64,000 nucleotides of DNA from Crambe crambe (taxonomy: Eukaryota > Porifera > Demospongiae > Poecilosclerida > Crambeidae), in the NCBI GenBank assembly GCA_963924555.1, contig OZ004598.1, forward strand, positions 4,364,501 to 4,428,500, given 5' to 3'. The stretch's first letter is position 1. Each line of letters opens with the position of its first letter. This document shows positions 32,460 to 45,079 of the stretch, in pieces. The notes beneath the pieces were generated by a model. That model was given only the letters and a program-made list of their open reading frames with translations, did not search any database and was not told the DNA's origin. Both the position numbers and the translations under genes were made by a program.

Positions 32460-35400
32460 ATGATCAGGTCTGAACTGGTGGAGCTGTGGAAGTCTCGGGT
32501 CCGATACCTGAGGCAATATTATTGTTTCCATGGCCATAGACCAAAGCAGAGAGGCTTCCCCACCCTATCCCGCCATGTCTGGTTCATCCCTTTCATTTTG
32601 ACTCTTTGGTGGTTGGTGATAGCCATTATCTTTCTATACACCCTCAAACTGGAGCATCTATTGAACACTGGTGAGAATCGTGCGTTTTAGCTTGTACATC
32701 TCAGTACTATGAAGAGTATAGTGAACTTCCTAGGCTGTTATGGATAAGGTATATTTTCTTTTATTTCAGGTGATATCATACGATACTTGCTTGGTTTGTA
32801 CTTTCTTCTGGCACTGTTGTTGTGGAAGCTCGCCATAACAGAATCTGAAGGAACGCTCAAACCTCACCTGTGTAAAGGTCCCCCTTGCTTGTGTCCCCTA
32901 TGTGCCAATCACGAGTTCCGATATGGCTGCACTATCAGACACGGGGATATGACCGTTGTGATTTTACCTCTTAAACGAAATTGGAAATGTTATCAAAGGA
33001 GAAAAGTCCTTCTCACTGTTCAATACTCCGACAATCAAGTGGCGACTTACTTGCTGTTATTATTGGCTGGCGATGTTGAAACTAACCCTGGTCCTGGTGA
33101 GTAGCATCTATGTTATGAGTTGGGGCTCATAGGTTAGGCCTCGTAGATTATTGAGTTAGACCATAGTTATCTCTAAGGTAGGAAACCATTTATAACCAGT
33201 CTGCACACATTCCTTGCATGTATGTATGCGCATATATGTTGGCATCTTATTTTAAGCAAGCATTGACCAATCAGATTGGGTGTTTCAATACAAGTCTAGT
33301 TTAAGATCATCCGATCCGATGACCATAGGTACAGCGTACGCAACGCTCTCGTGCACAAAAGGGGGAGCATGCATGCATTTTTCCCTGAAAGTGCAAAAAG
33401 ATTTCACCTTTAATAAAAAGTGTTATGTTAGCCAAACACTATTGCTCACATTTTGAATTATTTATTTTATTTTTAGATCATCTAACGATCAAGGATCATT
33501 TTAAAGTCACTGAGTATCTAAGATATTTATCTCAAGAAGACCAGATCAGGTTAGGTGGAGCGTTGGGTCTCCACTACACCAACTTGAAGGAGATGACCTC
33601 TCTCTGTGGAGATATGGTTTTGGCTTGGCTCAAACAGCAAGATAATGTGACACAGAAAAGTGGTAAACCAACCTGGGAGAGCTTGTTTTCGGCACTTAAA
33701 CTTATTGGTCACGAAGGGCTTGCTAAAACAATCACGAAAGGTAACTAGTAACTGATATGTAGATAGATGGGCAAGAATACATATCTAGATGGCATTTCCC
33801 ATCCTGGTTACCGTTTGGAACCACCTGACGTTAAAGTCTAATCTAATAACAAGTGGCTTTATAATGGTGTAAGATAGAATTGGTACTTTTGGGATATGAC
33901 AGAGAACTGGTTTCATAAGGTGGTCTGATTGGACAATTAACACTATCATTATGCCCCTGTGTACGTGTATTACCTTATTATAATGGTTACCTGGTTATAT
34001 ATGATTTAGAGCTGAAGTTAGAGATGTTCTACATGGAACTTGTTAATGTGAGTGACAAGTGGTTCCGTATCGGCAGACAGCTGGGTATCAATATTGGCGA
34101 ATTGAACGCCTTCAAATCCGAATATAGAGAAGACAAAAATGCTCTTTTGAAGAAATGTCTTGATGTTTGGTTGGAAACTACTTCGGACTGTACCTGGGAG
34201 GCACTAATCTCTGCTCTGGAAGACTCCACTGTGGATGAACCGAAACTGACAGAGAGACTACGACGCAAACACACCCGGCATTCCACCCAAAAAGGTTGTT
34301 TTTTTAAAAATAACCAGTTGATATCTTGGATATGGCTTGGTTAATGGATGAGAGCTATTGGAATAAGAATTATGAGCTATAAATACATCATTATATTACA
34401 TATCCAAGATTTCTTTATATTTATTCCGAATAATGTATGTGCAGATATTTTACCCCAAATTCCAAATATTGCCCACCTTTTTATTTGTTAATTGCTCTAT
34501 AATCGTATGAATGCTAGCTGTGTGCCTGGTTTTGCTGTGTAGCATGTACATGACACTGTGCATTTCCTAGCTCATGTATTGGTGAGATGTAATTATTTAT
34601 ATTGCATCATTTCACTCAAAATTTTAGGTGATTCTCGCTCATCTCCCAAAAATCAACATTCCAAATCCGCTGGATTCGCCACTTCTGCCAAACCTGCCCA
34701 AGTAAAGGACGGCAAATGGCCAACTGGAGCAACTTCAGTTGTCCATTGGAAAAAACCACGCATATGGCCCCCCCTCCGTGAGAATTATCATCTCTATTTA
34801 GCAGTAATGAGAGACCGAACAAGAAAAATGAAGTCAAAGTACACCACATTGTTTCTGGACTTCAGAACTTCGTTTTTGGAAAGAGACTTGGAAGATCATT
34901 TTCAAGACCTGTACAGTGTGACATCAGATTATTGTTTCGATGAAGCTGCTATGGAAGAAATCATAGAAAAGCGAGACGTAAAGGGTCTTTTGATGCAGGT
35001 TTTTTATCACCAGTCTTTCATGAACTTCGAGTTGCTTGTGGACGTAATTATTGAACGAGTGGGATCTGACGAAGACAAGAAGAACGCTCGAGAGTATCTC
35101 AATTCATTCAAAGAATACCTCAAGTTGAGAGTATTCGATCGTGCTCCAGACTTCTCTCCAGATCTTGACACTCACTGCACTGTCATTTTTGTTGTTGACT
35201 GGAATCAACCGGAATATAAAATCAGTGAAGTATGCGATTTCAAAATTTTTATTGGTGAGATATTGAACATCGATCCTGCGAGAATGCTAGTGTTTCGAGC
35301 GGAAAAGGGAAGTCTTGTGGTACATCTTCAAATCGCTTGGAAGGATTTGCAGCGTTTAGAGACCATGCCTCTGTTTCCGAGGAAACTGAGAACCATCAAG

Positions 35401-38114
35401 GACAAAGGTGTCCAATCCTACAAGTTTGAGAATCGTGAGGTGGTGATGCTGAAGCACTGGAAAGTGCTCACTGATGTCACATTAGAGCCACCTGAAGACT
35501 CGTCACCTGTGAAAGAATCGCCTGCACACAAGAAACAAAGTAATATTGTATTGGCTAAACATCAAGGCAAGGAGTGTATGGCTCTCGTGTACCCTGCTCA
35601 GTTTACCGATGAATCCAAGGTGGATACAGGGTATATTAAGTACCTTGAGCTTTTAATTCGAAACCACAGAGAAGTTCCATCAATCGAGGGGTTGTATTAT
35701 CCATCGGTGGAGGGGGAAGAGCCAAAGAAGTACCCAGCTGTGATCATTGAGAAATTAGAGCCTTTAAAAGAAGTTGTCTCTTATTACAGAGAATCGGAAG
35801 TCAATCAGTTATCGCTTCTGACGAGCATTTCAAGTTGTTTGAGCAGATTTGAAAATCTCAACCAAAAGCTGAAGGTGGTGAAGGAGCACATATTCATCGA
35901 AAAAAAAGATGCCGAATTAGAAGCAAAACTCATCCCTGTCTATGGTCATTCGTTCATTGGTGAACAGTCATCTCCAACTTCTGAAACATTATCATACGAT
36001 GACTTGCTGTGGATGAAAGAGATGATACTTTCGTTATTTTCACATGATAACGTCGCCCCCAGCCCCGATGACGTTCAACTTCCAAGCAATCACTTACTAA
36101 AGAACATTTTCAAACAAAAATGGCTATCTAAAGGCTCTCAATTCAGACCAGCTTCTTATTCAGTTCTAACAGATGAACTTCGGCACGTACTTGGTAAGTA
36201 TCTATGTATATAAATAATTTCTGGGTTTAATTTTTTTATAAATTATATAGAGACGGAAAAGACATGGATTGGCTTGGTAAATATTTCTGATAGTGATCTC
36301 GTGGAGGATGAAATCCAAATCCACGTCACACTGATTGGCCACACTGGAGTGGGCAAAACGAGTCTTCGAAAGCATCTCAAAGACGAACCGATAGACAAGC
36401 ATGAGACTCCAACAATAGTCATGCAATCCGAGTTCCTCTACCAGGAGGCAGCTGTTGCTGAAAGTGCCTTCAAGCCATTACTGCATCTACCCAAAACAAA
36501 GTCTCTATCACCATGTGGGACGCTGGAGGTAAACCAATATTTCAAGATCTGTTACCTTGCTTTGCACGACTAAAGTGCATGTACGGAATATGTTTCCGTT
36601 TGTATGATTTGAAAAATTTAGACGATAAGCCAGCTTCATCTCCTTTCAGTCATCGAGACATCCTGTATCGCAACTTATCTTTTGTCCAAGCTTTTTCATC
36701 CGGTGTGGGGAAGAAAACGGAGAATTTGCCACCACAAGTGAAATCGAGAGATTCCCAGAATGTTCCAACTGCAGCAGTCGTGGTTGGGACATTCAACGAT
36801 CAAGCAATAATTCACGAGGGAGATTTATACCAAGACAGGAAAGATGCTCTAAATGAATCCATTGGCAGGTTTGCGAGAAAATACAAGAGTGATTTTTCTA
36901 TTTATACCGCAAAAGAGCAAGATGAGCCTTACATTCACGAGGTGGACAACACTGGAGCTCTTATGAAGCTCGACATAAAAATTGATCCGGGAATCAAGTC
37001 CCTTCGAAACACCATATCGTCATATGCTAAGGACTTGCGATCTGAAATCCCTCGCTCATGGCAAGCATTCAAACTGGCACTTCAACGATTGTGCTACACA
37101 GAGTATGTCAACATCGGCATTATTCCCTTGGATGAAGCCATTTCTATCGGCAAGAGTGTCTGCCATGTCGATGAACCTAGAGCTGCATTGGTGTATTTCC
37201 ACGAGCTAGGTGTGTTCATGTGGCACCATTTGTCAGAGAGAAGGATAATGCGAAACTTTGTCGTCATCGATCCCAAAACCTTGTTCCAAGCTCTTGGAAC
37301 GCTTCTTAACTACGATTCCAGCTCTCTCACACCAGAATGGAGCATGTTGACCAAGAAGGGAATCGTACCAATGAGCTTATACAGGTACCTTCTTGACAAG
37401 AAACCAAATAAATTTGACGATGACTGGGTCATTGAATTTCTGGAAGAGCATCATCTGGCCGTGAAAGTAGATTTTCCAGGAGAAGAGATTTGTTACTTTA
37501 TTCCTTCCGTACTGCCCGTAAGAAAAGAATATGGAAAGGCATTGAAGCAGTTGAACGGAGAAGACAGATCTCCTATGTACATAGTCCCAGAAACAGACTA
37601 CATCCCCACTGCTATGTTCACTAGACTGTTGACTGCGTTGGCTGGAGTTACTTGCGGCAACACAAGATGGAGTATCCCTCTCGATAATGACAAGCAGTTC
37701 ACAGCAAGCAGAAATCAGTTTGAGTTTAGAATTAACGATTCCGTGCGTGTGATATTATCTGAATTTCCTCACTATATTCGAGTTGACTGTGTTCCATACG
37801 ACAATGCTAACTTGAGCAAAGATATCCACTATCATGTTTTGTCCACGCTAAATGTTCAGCTCCAGCGAATAGTGCCACGTTGGCTGGAAAAGAAGGAGTT
37901 CGATTTGACATTTGTCTGCACAAATGAAACCTGTTCATCGACTGCTGAACATTTCTACTCAATAAAGAAGTTGACGTTGGAATCAGATGTTTGTGAATGT
38001 ACTTATGGACAAGAAAACAAGCTCAAAGATTCAGAACTAATTTGGTTTGGAAGTGAAACGGTGTCCAAGATAGCTCTTGCCAATTTAGGTACTAACACAT
38101 CATGCATAGTATAA
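32460..38114 (+). CDS. ROCO protein with 2A leader, two death domains and pseudokinase-like region (one frameshift)
   Basis: Coding exons are 32460-32670, 32770-33096, 33477-33740, 34010-34294, 34628-36193 and 36251-38114, about 1,505 aa if the one frameshift is ignored. In order: a membrane helix (about residues 35-60), a second helix (about 72-92), a Cys-rich segment, a 2A motif DVETNPGP (172-179) at the end of exon 2, a death domain in exon 3, a second in exon 4, a 522-residue exon whose C-terminal half resembles a degenerate kinase, then Roc (P-loop GHTGVGKTS, switch WDAGG, GTFND) and COR. All five introns are phase 1. Around 36440-36500 the frame shifts by one base. ROCO proteins are GTP-switch signalling proteins; with death domains an apoptosis or immunity role is inferred. 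The start is the ATG at 32460, after an acceptor at 32440. Confidence 0.85.
33003..33095 (+). other. 2A ribosome-skipping peptide
   Basis: The codons end in ATYLLLLLAGDVETNPGP, matching the 2A consensus D[VI]ExNPGP with the usual Leu-rich run before it. In 2A sequences the ribosome fails to join the last Gly and Pro, releasing the upstream peptide and continuing. Here that would release a 178-residue membrane leader and start the death-domain/ROCO part at Pro179. Confidence 0.88.
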
Positions 38115-38289
38115 GCTATTGTTTTTGCTATTGTTTTTGTTATTGTTTTTGTTTGTTTTTTGCTGCCTATTTTTATTGGAAAACAAGATTTTTTAAAAAT
38201 TGAAATTTGTACTTCACAACAAGAAAAGGCAAGAACTAAAAATAAAGAATCTGGACCGGTAACATGATGTAACACATAATGAAACAAAA

Positions 38290-40273
<1,984 letters not shown>

Positions 40274-40432: not shown

Positions 40433-42613
40433 TTATTTGACTCTAGCAGATGCAGTATTGAGTATTAGACTGATAAAACGGTCTATGGAGACTGGAAAAT
40501 ATAATGCATTATGAATTCTTGCTCATTTCACCATCTAAATCACTTACCACTAATAGCATCAAGAAGTTTTGGTCTTAGTTGCCATGGCGTTTCCATGACA
40601 AATAAGAGATAGACAGGTGCACCTGCAAGGATGATGGAGAATGCCATGAGGGAGGGGAGGGGCTGAAGGAGGAGGGGAAGGAAGACAAGGAAGAAGTAGA
40701 CCAGTATCATGAAGATTGCCACAGGGAAAATGAACCATGCCTGGAAGGGGGAAGAGAATAGACATGCTCAGTGAATGGTGTAGGAGTATGTGCACTATTA
40801 CAAGGGATGGCTCACTGCTGCAACATAGCAAAGTCATCAATTAACATAAGTGCAGAGGAATTTATCAAGAGAAGGTGAGGAGAAGGAGTAGGGAGAAAAA
40901 AGCTTTGGACAAGGGGTGTGGCTAACAAACCTTAAAGAGACGAGGTTTTTCTCTGTAAGTGAATCGCATGATAATAAGACCGATAATCACCAGAAGGTAC
41001 TCAAGGAAAACAGCAGTACCGACTGTCTCAATAAGCTTGGCTATGTCACCCATCCAAACCATGATACTACTCACAGTTCCCTGGGGGAAACAAACAAATA
41101 AACAAACAAATAAACAAACAAATAAACAAATATGAGATATGGGGCTGGCCCACAATTGAGTCATTATGATATTATATACCAGAGTGATGATAGCTGGTAT
41201 GGGTGTTTTCAGGGTCACGTGGAGACCACTCAGTACTTGTGGGAGGAGGCCATCTCTAGCAGCTGTGAACATAACTCTGGAGGACGTGAGGAGTGTACCC
41301 ACTGTGGAGCCAAGCACGGAGATGCCCACCATCAGAGGGATGACAACCAAGCCAGCTCTGCCAATGGTGGCAATACCGAAAGGCTATATTGTGTGAGGTG
41401 TGTGAAGATTACTACTATTACGGCCTGATACACATACCAATGCAACTGCTTCAGCATTTAGTATCTCCTCATATGATAACACAGAGAAGTAAGAGACGTT
41501 GACAAGAAGATAGCTGGCAGCCACGAGGGGAATGCCTATCAGGATAGACAAAGGGAGGATCTTCTTGACATTCTTGGTTTCCTCAATGGTGTAGTTCACA
41601 GCACTCCTGGAAGAAACAAATTTTCGAGCTTGCAACTAAATATACCCGAATCTTTCACTCACCATCCATCGTATGACCACAAAACTCCATATAGAGAGAG
41701 AGAAATAGCAGAGGGGGTTAGTTTATAGCCCTCCGTAGTTCGAAAAGGATGGTTCCATACATCAGGATATTCCCCTTTGTACACTATGTAGACTGTGCCC
41801 ACTGCAACTATGAAGACGAGGGAGAGTAATTTTGTGAAGGAGAAGAGAGTGATGATCCTTGCAGCTGCTTTGACACTCAAGCAATTTATCATGCATATGG
41901 TGACTGCATAAGAGAGAAAGAATAGTGATGCATTAAAAGAGTTACAACAAGTCTTTAGCACCTCCTCGCATTGAAGAGCACTGATACACACACTTACTGA
42001 TTATGGAAACAGAGAGAAGCTTCACAGCAAGTTCAGGCACAGCACACCCAATGAAAAAAGGTCGTATGAAGTATTGAGCACAAATTGATACAGAAATGGC
42101 AATACCAGTGGGTCCCATTAGGCATAAATCTGTCCAAACTGCCAAGAATCCCATCATTGAGCCCAGCAACTCAACCACTTTGTTTCTCCGTCTAAAAGAA
42201 TAAGCGTGAGTGAGGTACATGAATTCCCCTCCACTCTTTCCCACTAAGAGTCCTATCTCGATGTAACAGAGGCCGGCACAAAGAACCACAACTGCTCCAA
42301 ACAGCCAGAGAATCAAAGAAGCTCCAAATGAACCAGCATAAGTTAGGACAAGTGTAGGAGCTATGAATATCCCCGATCCAATGATTTTACCAATGATGAC
42401 AGATACACCATGCACAAGTGTGATCTCCTTCTTCAAAGAGATTGGTGATTTAGTTTCCTCTCCTTTGGAGGATCCTTCAGGAAGACTCTTTCCTTGAAGG
42501 AATTTGTCCTTTTCACATGTTTCATCCTCACTGCTCTGTGGAGACTCAACCAAAGAACTATCTCTACTTCTTCTTTTCAGAGATATTTCAACCAATTCAA
42601 AGGTGTCGACCAT
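40433..42613 (-). CDS. SLC7/LAT-type amino-acid transporter, paralogue 1
   Basis: A 12-helix exchanger of neutral or cationic amino acids at the plasma membrane. Seven exons on minus (42613-41998, 41903-41663, 41606-41438, 41383-41180, 41080-40931, 40740-40548, 40482-40433) give 540 aa. TM1 has IIGSGIF, the unwound substrate-binding loop of the family. INCLSVKAAARI and LSLYGVLWSYDGW match LAT signatures. FFIGCAVPE carries the Cys that in LATs bonds to the SLC3 heavy chain. Intron 3 of the other three paralogues is absent: its exon 3 (169 bp) equals their exons 3+4 (45+124). The start is the Met at 42613, which puts the ATG 97 bp from that of paralogue 2. An in-frame Met at 42652 would add 13 residues. 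Confidence 0.93.
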
Positions 42614-42710
42614 TATGAGGGAAGACACGCCTTCTTCACTTACAAGCCACACCTCCTAGATACCCCTTGAAATTCAAAAAAAGAAACCGTAGAAGAAAAA
42701 CGAATAAAAC
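42614..42710. promoter_or_regulatory. 97-bp divergent promoter region between transporter paralogues 1 and 2
   Basis: Only 97 bp separate the start codons of the two oppositely oriented transporter genes. It must hold both 5' UTRs and both core promoters unless transcription starts inside the partner gene. No TATA box is obvious. Confidence 0.6.
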
Positions 42711-45079
42711 ATGAGTTATGATTCGCACATGAATGGACTAAAACTGACGGGGAGAAAATACAACAGAGTCCCCACTGACGAACTCCGGCGTAGAGGCATC
42801 AGAACAAACTCCATGGCAGCTGGAGGAGGCTCAGTGATAAAAAAAGAGGAACATATCGAATCTGAGAAGATAGCTTTGAAGAAAGAATTCACTCTGAGCT
42901 CAGGCATAGCAGTAGTGGTGGGTCAGATCATAGGCTCCGGAATCTTTGTCACTCCAAAGTCCATTCTTCATTACGCTGGGTCGTTTGGAGTTTGTATCAT
43001 CATTTGGGTACTAGGGGCTGTGATATCTATTGCTGGTGGTTTCTGTTACATTGAACTTGGACTTCTATTCAAGAAGGGTGGAGGCGAACCAGCTTACCTC
43101 CGAGAAGCATACTCCTTCAAGAAAAGATCAAAATGGTCCGAGTTGTTTGGATCTCTAATCAGCTTTCTCTTCATATGGAGTAATATTAGTATCTTACGGC
43201 CAGCTGGCATGGGGATCCTGTCCCTCACCTGTTCTCGTTACCTTGTCCGCCCATTCTTTGGAGATGATGAGATCCCCGAGTATTTGATCAAGGCAGTGGC
43301 TCTTAGTATACTGAGTAAGTTTACTGTCAGTGGCTCTTAGTATAGGCCTACTGAGTAATTTACTGAGTAAGAAGAAGCAGTGGGAGGGGGAGGGGATGAG
43401 GGAGAAGTGGAAATTCCCTAAGGAGTGGTAGTATGGAAGAGTTCTTTACTGTAGCTAAACTCTACTTTTTCCCCTCCCCCTTTCAGTTGCAGTGACCCTC
43501 ATCAATAGTCTTAGTGTCAAAGCAACAGCGCGAGTCATCACAGTTCTGTCCACCACCAAAGTGATAGCCGTGGTATTCATAGCTGCAGTGGGTGTGATCT
43601 TCACCATTCACAGGGGCGTGTATCCCGAGATATTCCACCATCCATTCCAGATGGTCGAAGGTCATGTGACTACACCTTCTGCTATTGCTCTTGCTCTCTA
43701 TGGAGTATTATGGTCCTATGATGGATGGTATGTACCAGAGAGGTTTCTAATGACAGGCTAAACTCTCTATACCTTTAGGAATTCAATGACCTATGCTTTG
43801 GAGGAGACAAAAGACATCAAAAAGTATTTAAGAATAAATAAATTAATAATTAGGTGCTGGTGTGATAATGTTATTATTGATTTAGGACACTGCCTTTGTC
43901 TCTGCTGATAGGAATACCCATAGTGGCTGTTTGCTACCTGCTTGTAAACCTTTCATTCTTTGCAGCACTCACATATCAGCAAATACTGAGTGCAGATGCT
44001 GTTGCTTTGGTAAGTTTGATTGACACCCCCAGAATGAGTTATGTTTTTCATCACTTCTTTTTAAACTATCAGCCTTTTGGAGAAGCCACGTTGGGGAAAG
44101 CAGGGTTGGTTATCATCCCTCTGCTGGTGGCAGTAGCAATTTTTGGTTCCCTGATAGGAACTGTCTTCACAGGCTCCAGAATTACTTTCAGTGCAGCAAG
44201 GGACGGCTTCCTCCCCGACTTCATGAGTGGTCTTCACAGGAGCTCAAAAACACCTCTGCCTGCAGTGATCCTATTGGTATGTGTGGAATACTGATAGTTA
44301 AAGAGTGATCCAATTCAAAAGGAAAGATTTGATTTGACATCCCATATTACAAATAATGACTGTAAAATGATCAGTGGCCAGTATTTATTCCATACTAAGA
44401 GTCTGGCTAAGTCTGAAAACTGCTTACGTCACTCAGATTGCAGCATTCTTGTCTGTACCATTAATTATGGCTTTCATTTCTCTGCAGTTCTTGATGGGGA
44501 GTGTTTCTCTGTTCGTTGGAGACATCTCTGAACTGATTGAAGGTTGTAGTGCTTCGATTTTTCTGTTCTATTTACTGGTGATTATTGGACTGATAATCAT
44601 GCGATTCACACACAAGGAGGAGCCTCGTTTTTATAAGGTTAGCTCGGTCTCCTTCTTTCCTCTGTCCATCCTTTCTTCCTTTGTCCTCCCTCTCCTTATT
44701 CACATGTCTTGGTCTCTCTTCCTCTATACAACACAGTCAAGATTTTATATCTCTTTCACCTCAGGCATGGTTCATCTTTCCTGTGGCAATCTTCATGGTA
44801 CTGGTCTTCCTATTCCTTGTCTTCCTTCCCCTCCTCCTTCAGCCCCTCCCCTCCCTCATGGCATTCTCCATCATCCTCACTGGTGCACCAGTCTACCTTT
44901 TCTTTGTCATGGAAACACCATGGAAACTAAGGCCTAAATTCTTTGATGCTATTAGTGGTAAGAAAATAATTATCACAACTCTGAGGAATAAAAATCATTT
45001 ATTTTCCACTGAATTAGGCTGGTTTTCTCGAATAATTAATTCTGCTTTGAACACACAATCTTCAAGAACTTGTAATTGA
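42711..45079 (+). CDS. SLC7/LAT-type amino-acid transporter, paralogue 2
   Basis: Eight exons (42711-43314, 43487-43727, 43779-43823, 43886-44009, 44073-44276, 44488-44637, 44765-44957, 45018-45079), 540 aa, the same length as paralogue 1. IIGSGIF in TM1 and GVLWSYDGW are present. The heavy-chain cysteine is missing: RPFFGDDEIPE replaces the RPFFIGC-type sequence of the others. Exon 7 is far more similar to exon 6 of paralogue 1 than the rest of the gene is. The exon 1 end is partly duplicated in intron 1. Function as a transporter is likely; dependence on an SLC3 partner is doubtful. Confidence 0.93.
43296..43375 (+). repeat. Local duplication of the exon 1 end and donor
   Basis: CAGTGGCTCTTAGTATA occurs at the exon 1 end and again about 35 bp into intron 1, each followed by ACTGAGTAA-type donor sequence. 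Confidence 0.75.

Follow-up and report, generated by a model that had tools for sequence, protein, structure and literature searches.

Several described systems come close to the gene analyzed here. In sea urchins, NLR genes carry N-terminal 2A sequences, and a leader of this kind placed in reporters gave an estimated 80% ribosome skipping in vitro and two localizations, with some of the product free in the cytosol and some entering the exocytic pathway (Roulston et al. 2016, PMC4981915). The introduction of that paper assigns an N-terminal 2A to about 35% (85/241) of sea-urchin NLRs, and its results section gives a 26-residue N-terminal 2A for 14 of 87 current entries. N-terminal 2A leaders on cellular immune genes are, in this respect, already known. 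Among the viral StopGo/2A elements, the L-rich motifs 2 and 6 have an Asp preceded by (A/S/C)G and a hydrophobic run, and an example of motif 6 is active in vitro (Li et al. 2026, PMC12846837). Death-TRADD-N expansions in Amphimedon have one to three N-terminal death-like domains and variable C-termini (ankyrin, kinase, PDZ); the section that describes them reports no 2A leader, and neither NPGP nor ribosome skipping occurs in the main text (Kaur et al. 2021, PMC8195603). Relatives within the ROCO family include LRRK2 and DAPK1 (PMC4104024).

The window, a stretch of 64,000 nucleotides from Crambe crambe, contains a predicted gene that combines features of these systems (Table 1). Like the sea-urchin genes, it is a cellular immune-type gene with an N-terminal D(V/I)ExNPGP 2A ahead of a death/NACHT-type downstream protein (PMC4981915). 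The leaders differ: those of sea urchins are signal sequences of 26 residues on NACHT-LRR genes (PMC4981915), whereas the one in the window has 178 residues, two exons, two helices and a Cys-containing tail and stands on a ROCO gene. Some other leaders of this genome (L094, L100) look short. As in the viral L-rich motifs 2 and 6, the Asp (p12) follows (A/S/C)G and a Leu-rich run; the viral element is a polyprotein junction, whereas here it lies in a host gene, at an exon end (PMC12846837). The gene shares a Roc P-loop and COR-A matches with the ROCO family (LRRK/DAPK relatives), from which it differs in its N-terminal 2A leader, its death-like exons and its frame-shifted Roc. We consider it highly probable that the gene belongs to a paralogous death-domain/ROCO family in which a two-exon membrane leader ends in an active 2A, with a cytosolic main product and a tethered minority. 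The original prediction knew of no established 2A in a ROCO protein, and none came to light in the literature searched, which took in few subscription papers and no bioRxiv preprints, nor did any use of 2A on ROCO genes with long two-helix leaders and at this genomic scale.

Table 1. Predicted features of the leader-2A/ROCO gene, in window coordinates.
Feature	Position	Strand	Description	Evidence
Exon 1	32460-32670	+	Positively charged N-terminus, hydrophobic helix 1 (residues ~40-58)	Translation, hydropathy
Exon 2	32770-33096	+	Hydrophobic helix 2 (~75-93), Cys-containing tail, Leu run, 2A, phase-1 donor	
2A/StopGo element YLLLLLAG-DVETNPGP	33048-33095	+	Predicted skip: Gly178/Pro179	
Exon 3 (DD1)	33477-33740	+	Death-domain-like, phase 1-1	
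Exon 4	34010-34294	+	Death domain PF00531, phase 1-1	
Exon 5	34628-36193	+	Conserved region, read as the pseudokinase part in the original prediction, phase 1-1	
Exon 6	36251-38114	+	Roc-COR region in two frames: P-loop 36251-36570; WDAGG-COR 36462-38111	

Once joined as predicted, exons 1 to 5 (32460-36193) form 884 open codons with GT/AG ends throughout, and exons 2, 3, 4 and 5 are all of phase 1-1. The exon 4 donor, GTTGTT, is weak. Translation and the predicted exon phases confirm that DVETNPGP occupies residues 172-179 (33072-33095) at the end of the leader exon, directly before the death-domain-like exon: exon 2 ends one base past the final Pro codon with the donor GTGAGT, and the predicted phase-1 splicing joins the 2A in frame to exon 3. 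The two hydrophobic helices and the Cys-containing segment that had been placed upstream of the 2A were likewise recovered by hydropathy and by six Cys between helix 2 and the 2A. The octapeptide lies within an open reading frame and fits the StopGo/2A pattern (D/G/C/N)(V/I)ExNPGP. It stands near the N-terminus, behind both hydrophobic helices, and the L-rich run before its Asp ends in (A/S/C)G (LLLLAG-D); its free position is Thr and so departs from the Ser favored by the published L-rich class. Lys/Arg to Asp/Glu ratios are 9:2 in the N-tail, 1:2 in the short loop and 10:5 in the tail after helix 2, a charge distribution which suggests that the leader forms a hairpin whose two ends face the cytosol. 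A hairpin of this orientation would give a cytosolic product and a tethered fusion. Among five leader loci taken with 1.5 kb of flank, three (L005-L007) have an exon-1-like stretch of 70-74% identity about 0.7-1.0 kb 5′ of the leader exon (tblastn E 4e-24 to 1e-25), and no window-like exon 1 was found in the other two, L001 and L008.

The motif is far too frequent in this genome for coincidence. The exact codon pattern of DVETNPGP occurs at 87 sites in the 143-Mb genome and its reverse at none, with about 0.008 expected at even base composition; a wider (D/G)(V/I/M)ExNPGP codon pattern occurs at 208 sites, again with none for the reverse and about 0.5 expected on the same assumption. The 2A motif in the window is real and not a chance match. 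The gene had been presented as a single oddity, a view that does not survive the 208 wider-pattern sites and the paralogous leader family described below. Positions are known for 194 of the 208 sites, and the site analyses use these. The first residue is Asp in all 194, though the wide pattern admits Gly, and Met takes the second position once (C5:9085034). The free residue is T in 88, L in 51, V in 28, S in 26 and M in 1, the remaining octapeptide positions being forced by the search pattern itself; Ser is preferred at this position in the viral L-rich class (PMC12846837), whereas mostly Thr, Leu and Val are found here. In 68 other 2A sites that were fetched with their surroundings, the Asp always follows Gly, in 67 of them as (A/C/S)G, and at least three of the four residues ahead of this pair are hydrophobic (Cys counted). 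A 17-residue segment with a mean hydropathy of at least 1.6 lies upstream in 47 of these 68; for many of the remaining sites, the DNA examined covered a single leader exon.

The leader can also be followed independently of its 2A. A 98-residue leader from C8, without the 2A, served as the query, and all 77 candidates were scored. It gave 72 matches in the genome, 67 of which, counting the window and the locus of the query itself, extend to the end of the leader. A listed 2A stands directly after 62 of the 67; in four of the five others (L041, L043, L044 and L045) the octapeptide is DVEINPGP or DIETNPGP, and the leader of L042 is interrupted, with DVETNPGP 495 bp further on. This makes an intact 2A straight after 66 of 67 leaders found without using it, at leader identities of 34-100%. 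At the exception (C11:2666227-2666722), leader and 2A are separated by what looks like an insertion of about 0.5 kb, the sole interruption among the 67 leaders. For 46 leader copies, reduced to 22 representatives below 95% DNA identity, we calculated pN/pS values, which are descriptive since the copies share ancestry: 0.055 for the octapeptide (0.024 for its seven core codons without the free position), 0.48 for the ten residues before it and 0.57 for the rest of the exon, with pS alike in all three parts (0.44-0.48). The octapeptide is kept by amino-acid selection, and the leader exon is under moderate constraint only.

Selection of this kind could in principle act on the octapeptide for some protein-level reason other than skipping, e.g., as part of a signal anchor or as a processing site. 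A hydrophobic run does precede the octapeptide in all 68 fetched sites, and SignalP predicted a peptidase site inside a sea-urchin 2A leader (PMC4981915). We nevertheless find such an explanation very improbable. Among the 46 leader-found copies, the residues that 2A requires are fixed, with V or I second, whereas T, I and V all occur at x, which varies over the 194 listed sites as well; moreover, the upstream context obeys the rule of the published L-rich class (PMC12846837), and a sea-urchin leader does skip in vitro, at the estimated rate given above (PMC4981915).

We hypothesize that the two leader helices would emerge during translation and engage the ER membrane, that at NPG/P the leader (residues 1-178) would in most cases come free of the ribosome, and that translation would then resume from Pro179 and leave the death-domain/ROCO part in the cytosol. 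Products of the minority that fails to skip would remain anchored on the membrane's cytosolic side. This arrangement suggests that one mRNA may give rise to a free and a membrane-anchored form of one protein. Its splicing, skipping activity, topology and two localizations are what we infer from features that the DNA itself carries: the predicted exon phases, the copy number, the selection on the octapeptide, the context of a published class and the position of the leader-2A 5′ of Roc-COR.

The chief rival accepts an active 2A and gives it another use: rather than tuning localization, near-complete skipping would make a separate small membrane protein one-to-one with the downstream product. Exon 2 of the leader is indeed kept as protein, with a pN/pS (0.57) below 1 and with Cys, Trp and charged residues that are invariant in six copies, and exon 1 is common to three other loci. 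In vitro, skipping reached between about 92.7% and almost 100% in four published classes of motif, of which one is L-rich; the text of the paper gives no figure specific to the L-rich class (PMC12846837). Against a leader protein with a single function, 69 leaders fall into 12 groups without BLAST linkage, all of which share the hydrophobic run and the 2A, and this is a better fit to targeting or tethering. The grouping excluded the ten residues next to the octapeptide, and short leaders may hide distant kinship. We take the two-protein use as a tentative but serious possibility.

The preferred reading places the leader on a ROCO-type product, and its link with Roc-COR can be followed in the paralogues. 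In the window, Roc (2.7e-4) and COR-A (7.7e-6) are both under their curated cut-offs and in different frames; in the L113 paralogue, Roc (7.6e-10) is above and COR-A (1.3e-8) at the cut-off, in one frame. Twenty other loci are related to the window's Roc-COR piece, at 57-75% identity; 19 are nearly whole and one is in three pieces. Within 15 kb, a same-strand 2A lies upstream of 15 of the 21 close Roc-COR loci (window included; 15 different 2As) and downstream of one. Widening the distance to 35 kb gives 20 of the 21 loci an upstream 2A (19 different sites) and 11 of them a downstream one, the control being weaker at this distance because the genes lie in tandem clusters. The nearest upstream 2A is attached directly to a window-type leader in 19 of 20 of these loci, and the twentieth shows a partial leader match. 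Seen from the 67 leader copies, Roc-COR follows within 15 kb in 14 and precedes in none; within 35 kb, it follows in 19 and precedes in nine. No close Roc-COR was found for the other 48, and most leaders precede other or unread genes. Conversely, a 2A lies within 15 kb upstream of 12 of the 150 scored COR-A matches, so most scored ROCO matches are without a nearby 2A. One copy on C8 carries, on one strand and in order over about 13 kb, the leader-2A (L039), a Death domain (L040), an exon-5-like stretch and Roc-COR; its identity to the window is 54% in the last part of exon 5, 56% in Roc-COR and 71% in the P-loop part. Together with the selection on the octapeptide, the position of leader-2A 5′ of Roc-COR in paralogues upholds the claim that a membrane leader closes with a 2A that reads in frame into a gene of the death-domain/ROCO type. 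As separate observations, COR-A and Death are much expanded in the genome, by eye mostly in tandem clusters; there were 339 candidates for COR-A and 965 for Death, and 150 of each were scored. After its first Roc-COR, L113 (L113:423-5402) has a 642-aa ORF without a Pfam match, a second Roc-like ORF of 695 aa (Roc 9e-6, just below cut-off) and a Death domain (2e-9). The C8 paralogue gene may therefore contain more than one ROCO module, or another gene may lie behind it.

The exons between 2A and Roc-COR are of uneven standing. At least 43 of the 194 listed 2A sites (window included) are followed on their own strand by a DD1-like exon no more than 3 kb away; within the same 3 kb, none of the scored matches lay upstream, and none downstream on the opposite strand. 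In turn, a 2A stands just ahead of 37 of the 50 best DD1-like matches (the window's own included), and these DD1 counts are lower bounds since 150 of 343 candidates were scored. The prediction of two death domains holds for exon 4, which Pfam recognizes as Death (PF00531; E 3.8e-6, 27.4 bits against a cut-off of 22.6), but exon 3 is not recognized as Death by Pfam, nor are any of nine DD1 family members; its predicted structure is a five-helix bundle (pLDDT 71). The pseudokinase proposed for exon 5 is unproven: neither Pfam nor a search of PDB sequences gave a match, the structure model is unusable (pLDDT 35), and neither lends support to a kinase fold. The exon is conserved all the same, its last part matching the C8 paralogue (the 54% above) at E 2e-85. 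A TRADD-N domain in exon 5 is a guess, which Pfam did not detect.

A further question is whether the window copy itself encodes a full-length product. Compared with L113 (C8), its Roc sequence has a 6-base gap and then a 10-base gap on the way from the P-loop to WDAGG. The latter puts the remainder out of frame, and both the C8 paralogue and L117 (C10) are open through this stretch. The frame-shifted copy may be decaying, truncated or misassembled. A pseudogene or an assembly error, in a family that would have a functional full-length product elsewhere, is a possibility that we would place only a little short of even. It has to be set against the 884 open codons of exons 1-5, the 550 open codons of the Roc-COR piece, an intact leader and 2A, and a window-C8 pN/pS of 0.33-0.40 in exon 5 and Roc-COR, though this value mostly reflects past shared constraint. 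The DD-DD-pseudokinase-Roc-COR product originally drawn for this gene is accordingly not supported as intact for the window copy, with its broken Roc frame and unproven kinase, but family members with a one-frame Roc-COR exist.

Leaders with 2A are not confined to this gene type. Downstream of 14 other 2A sites, Pfam was run on 30 of 58 ORFs, and at L113 and L114 on 8 of 12. COR-A was found at L101 (6e-13), at L113 (at the cut-off, as above) and, together with ankyrin, at L114 (6e-10); just below cut-off, it accompanies PDZ at L102 (1e-7) and ankyrin at L103 (5e-8). NACHT, LRR and Ig occur at L107, ankyrin at L105 and L108, and Ig at L109. Death passes its cut-off at L040 and falls below it at L104, L108 and L112. 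L106 has no Pfam match in the ORFs scanned but contains an exon-4-like stretch by tblastn (E 3e-10), and nothing convincing was seen in the scanned ORFs of L110 and L111. By these matches, 2A leaders, related and unrelated, also stand before NLR-like, ankyrin (Ank-ROCO) and PDZ-ROCO genes. In L106 (C11), whose leader-2A is intact, the exon-5-like stretch downstream has stop codons, so some family members look decayed.

Odon et al. reportedly described 2A in non-LTR retrotransposons in 2013, and such elements share with the present sites a genome-borne motif. A 2A derived from, or marking, a retrotransposon inserted at the gene start would have the precedent of 2A sequences in these elements (PMC11512398, PMC4981915), and a Retrotrans_gag match, though weak, lies about 6 kb downstream at L111. 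Unlike in retrotransposons, ORF scans yielded neither a reverse transcriptase nor an endonuclease domain, whether behind the 14 other 2A sites (30 of 58 ORFs) or at L113 and L114 (8 of 12), and among six window ORFs scanned no RT or APE domain follows the 2A in frame. We find a retrotransposon origin scarcely credible.

We offer a broader idea as speculative and unlikely. Ribosome skipping might be a standard, exchangeable front-end module of intracellular immune-type receptors in this animal lineage: at least 12 leader groups would have acquired the same L-rich 2A by capture or by convergence, phase-1 leaders would have been shuffled onto ROCO, NLR-like, ankyrin and PDZ-ROCO bodies, and membrane insertion of the leader may set the skipping rate. 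Skipping can be inhibited when the stretch ahead of a 2A is translocated into the ER (de Felipe et al. 2010, PMC2978324). A switch coupled to the membrane is therefore thinkable, in which the membrane would set the balance between tethered and free receptor. Cellular genes are described as rarely using 2A/StopGo (PMC12846837). With about 200 sites in one genome and clear amino-acid selection in the tested leader family, C. crambe supplies many natural leaders and contexts side by side, in which the purpose of skipping in animals can be studied.

Finally, the surroundings of the gene in the window show some features of their own. Just past the ROCO gene, an ORF on the minus strand (38003-38545) has, by eye only, a hydrophobic tail like that of a tail-anchored SNARE. 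A long GA/CT dinucleotide repeat at 38925-39278 yields low-complexity ORFs on both strands. Beyond it, at 40540-44937, the ORF list shows by eye two related amino-acid-transporter-like genes on opposite strands.
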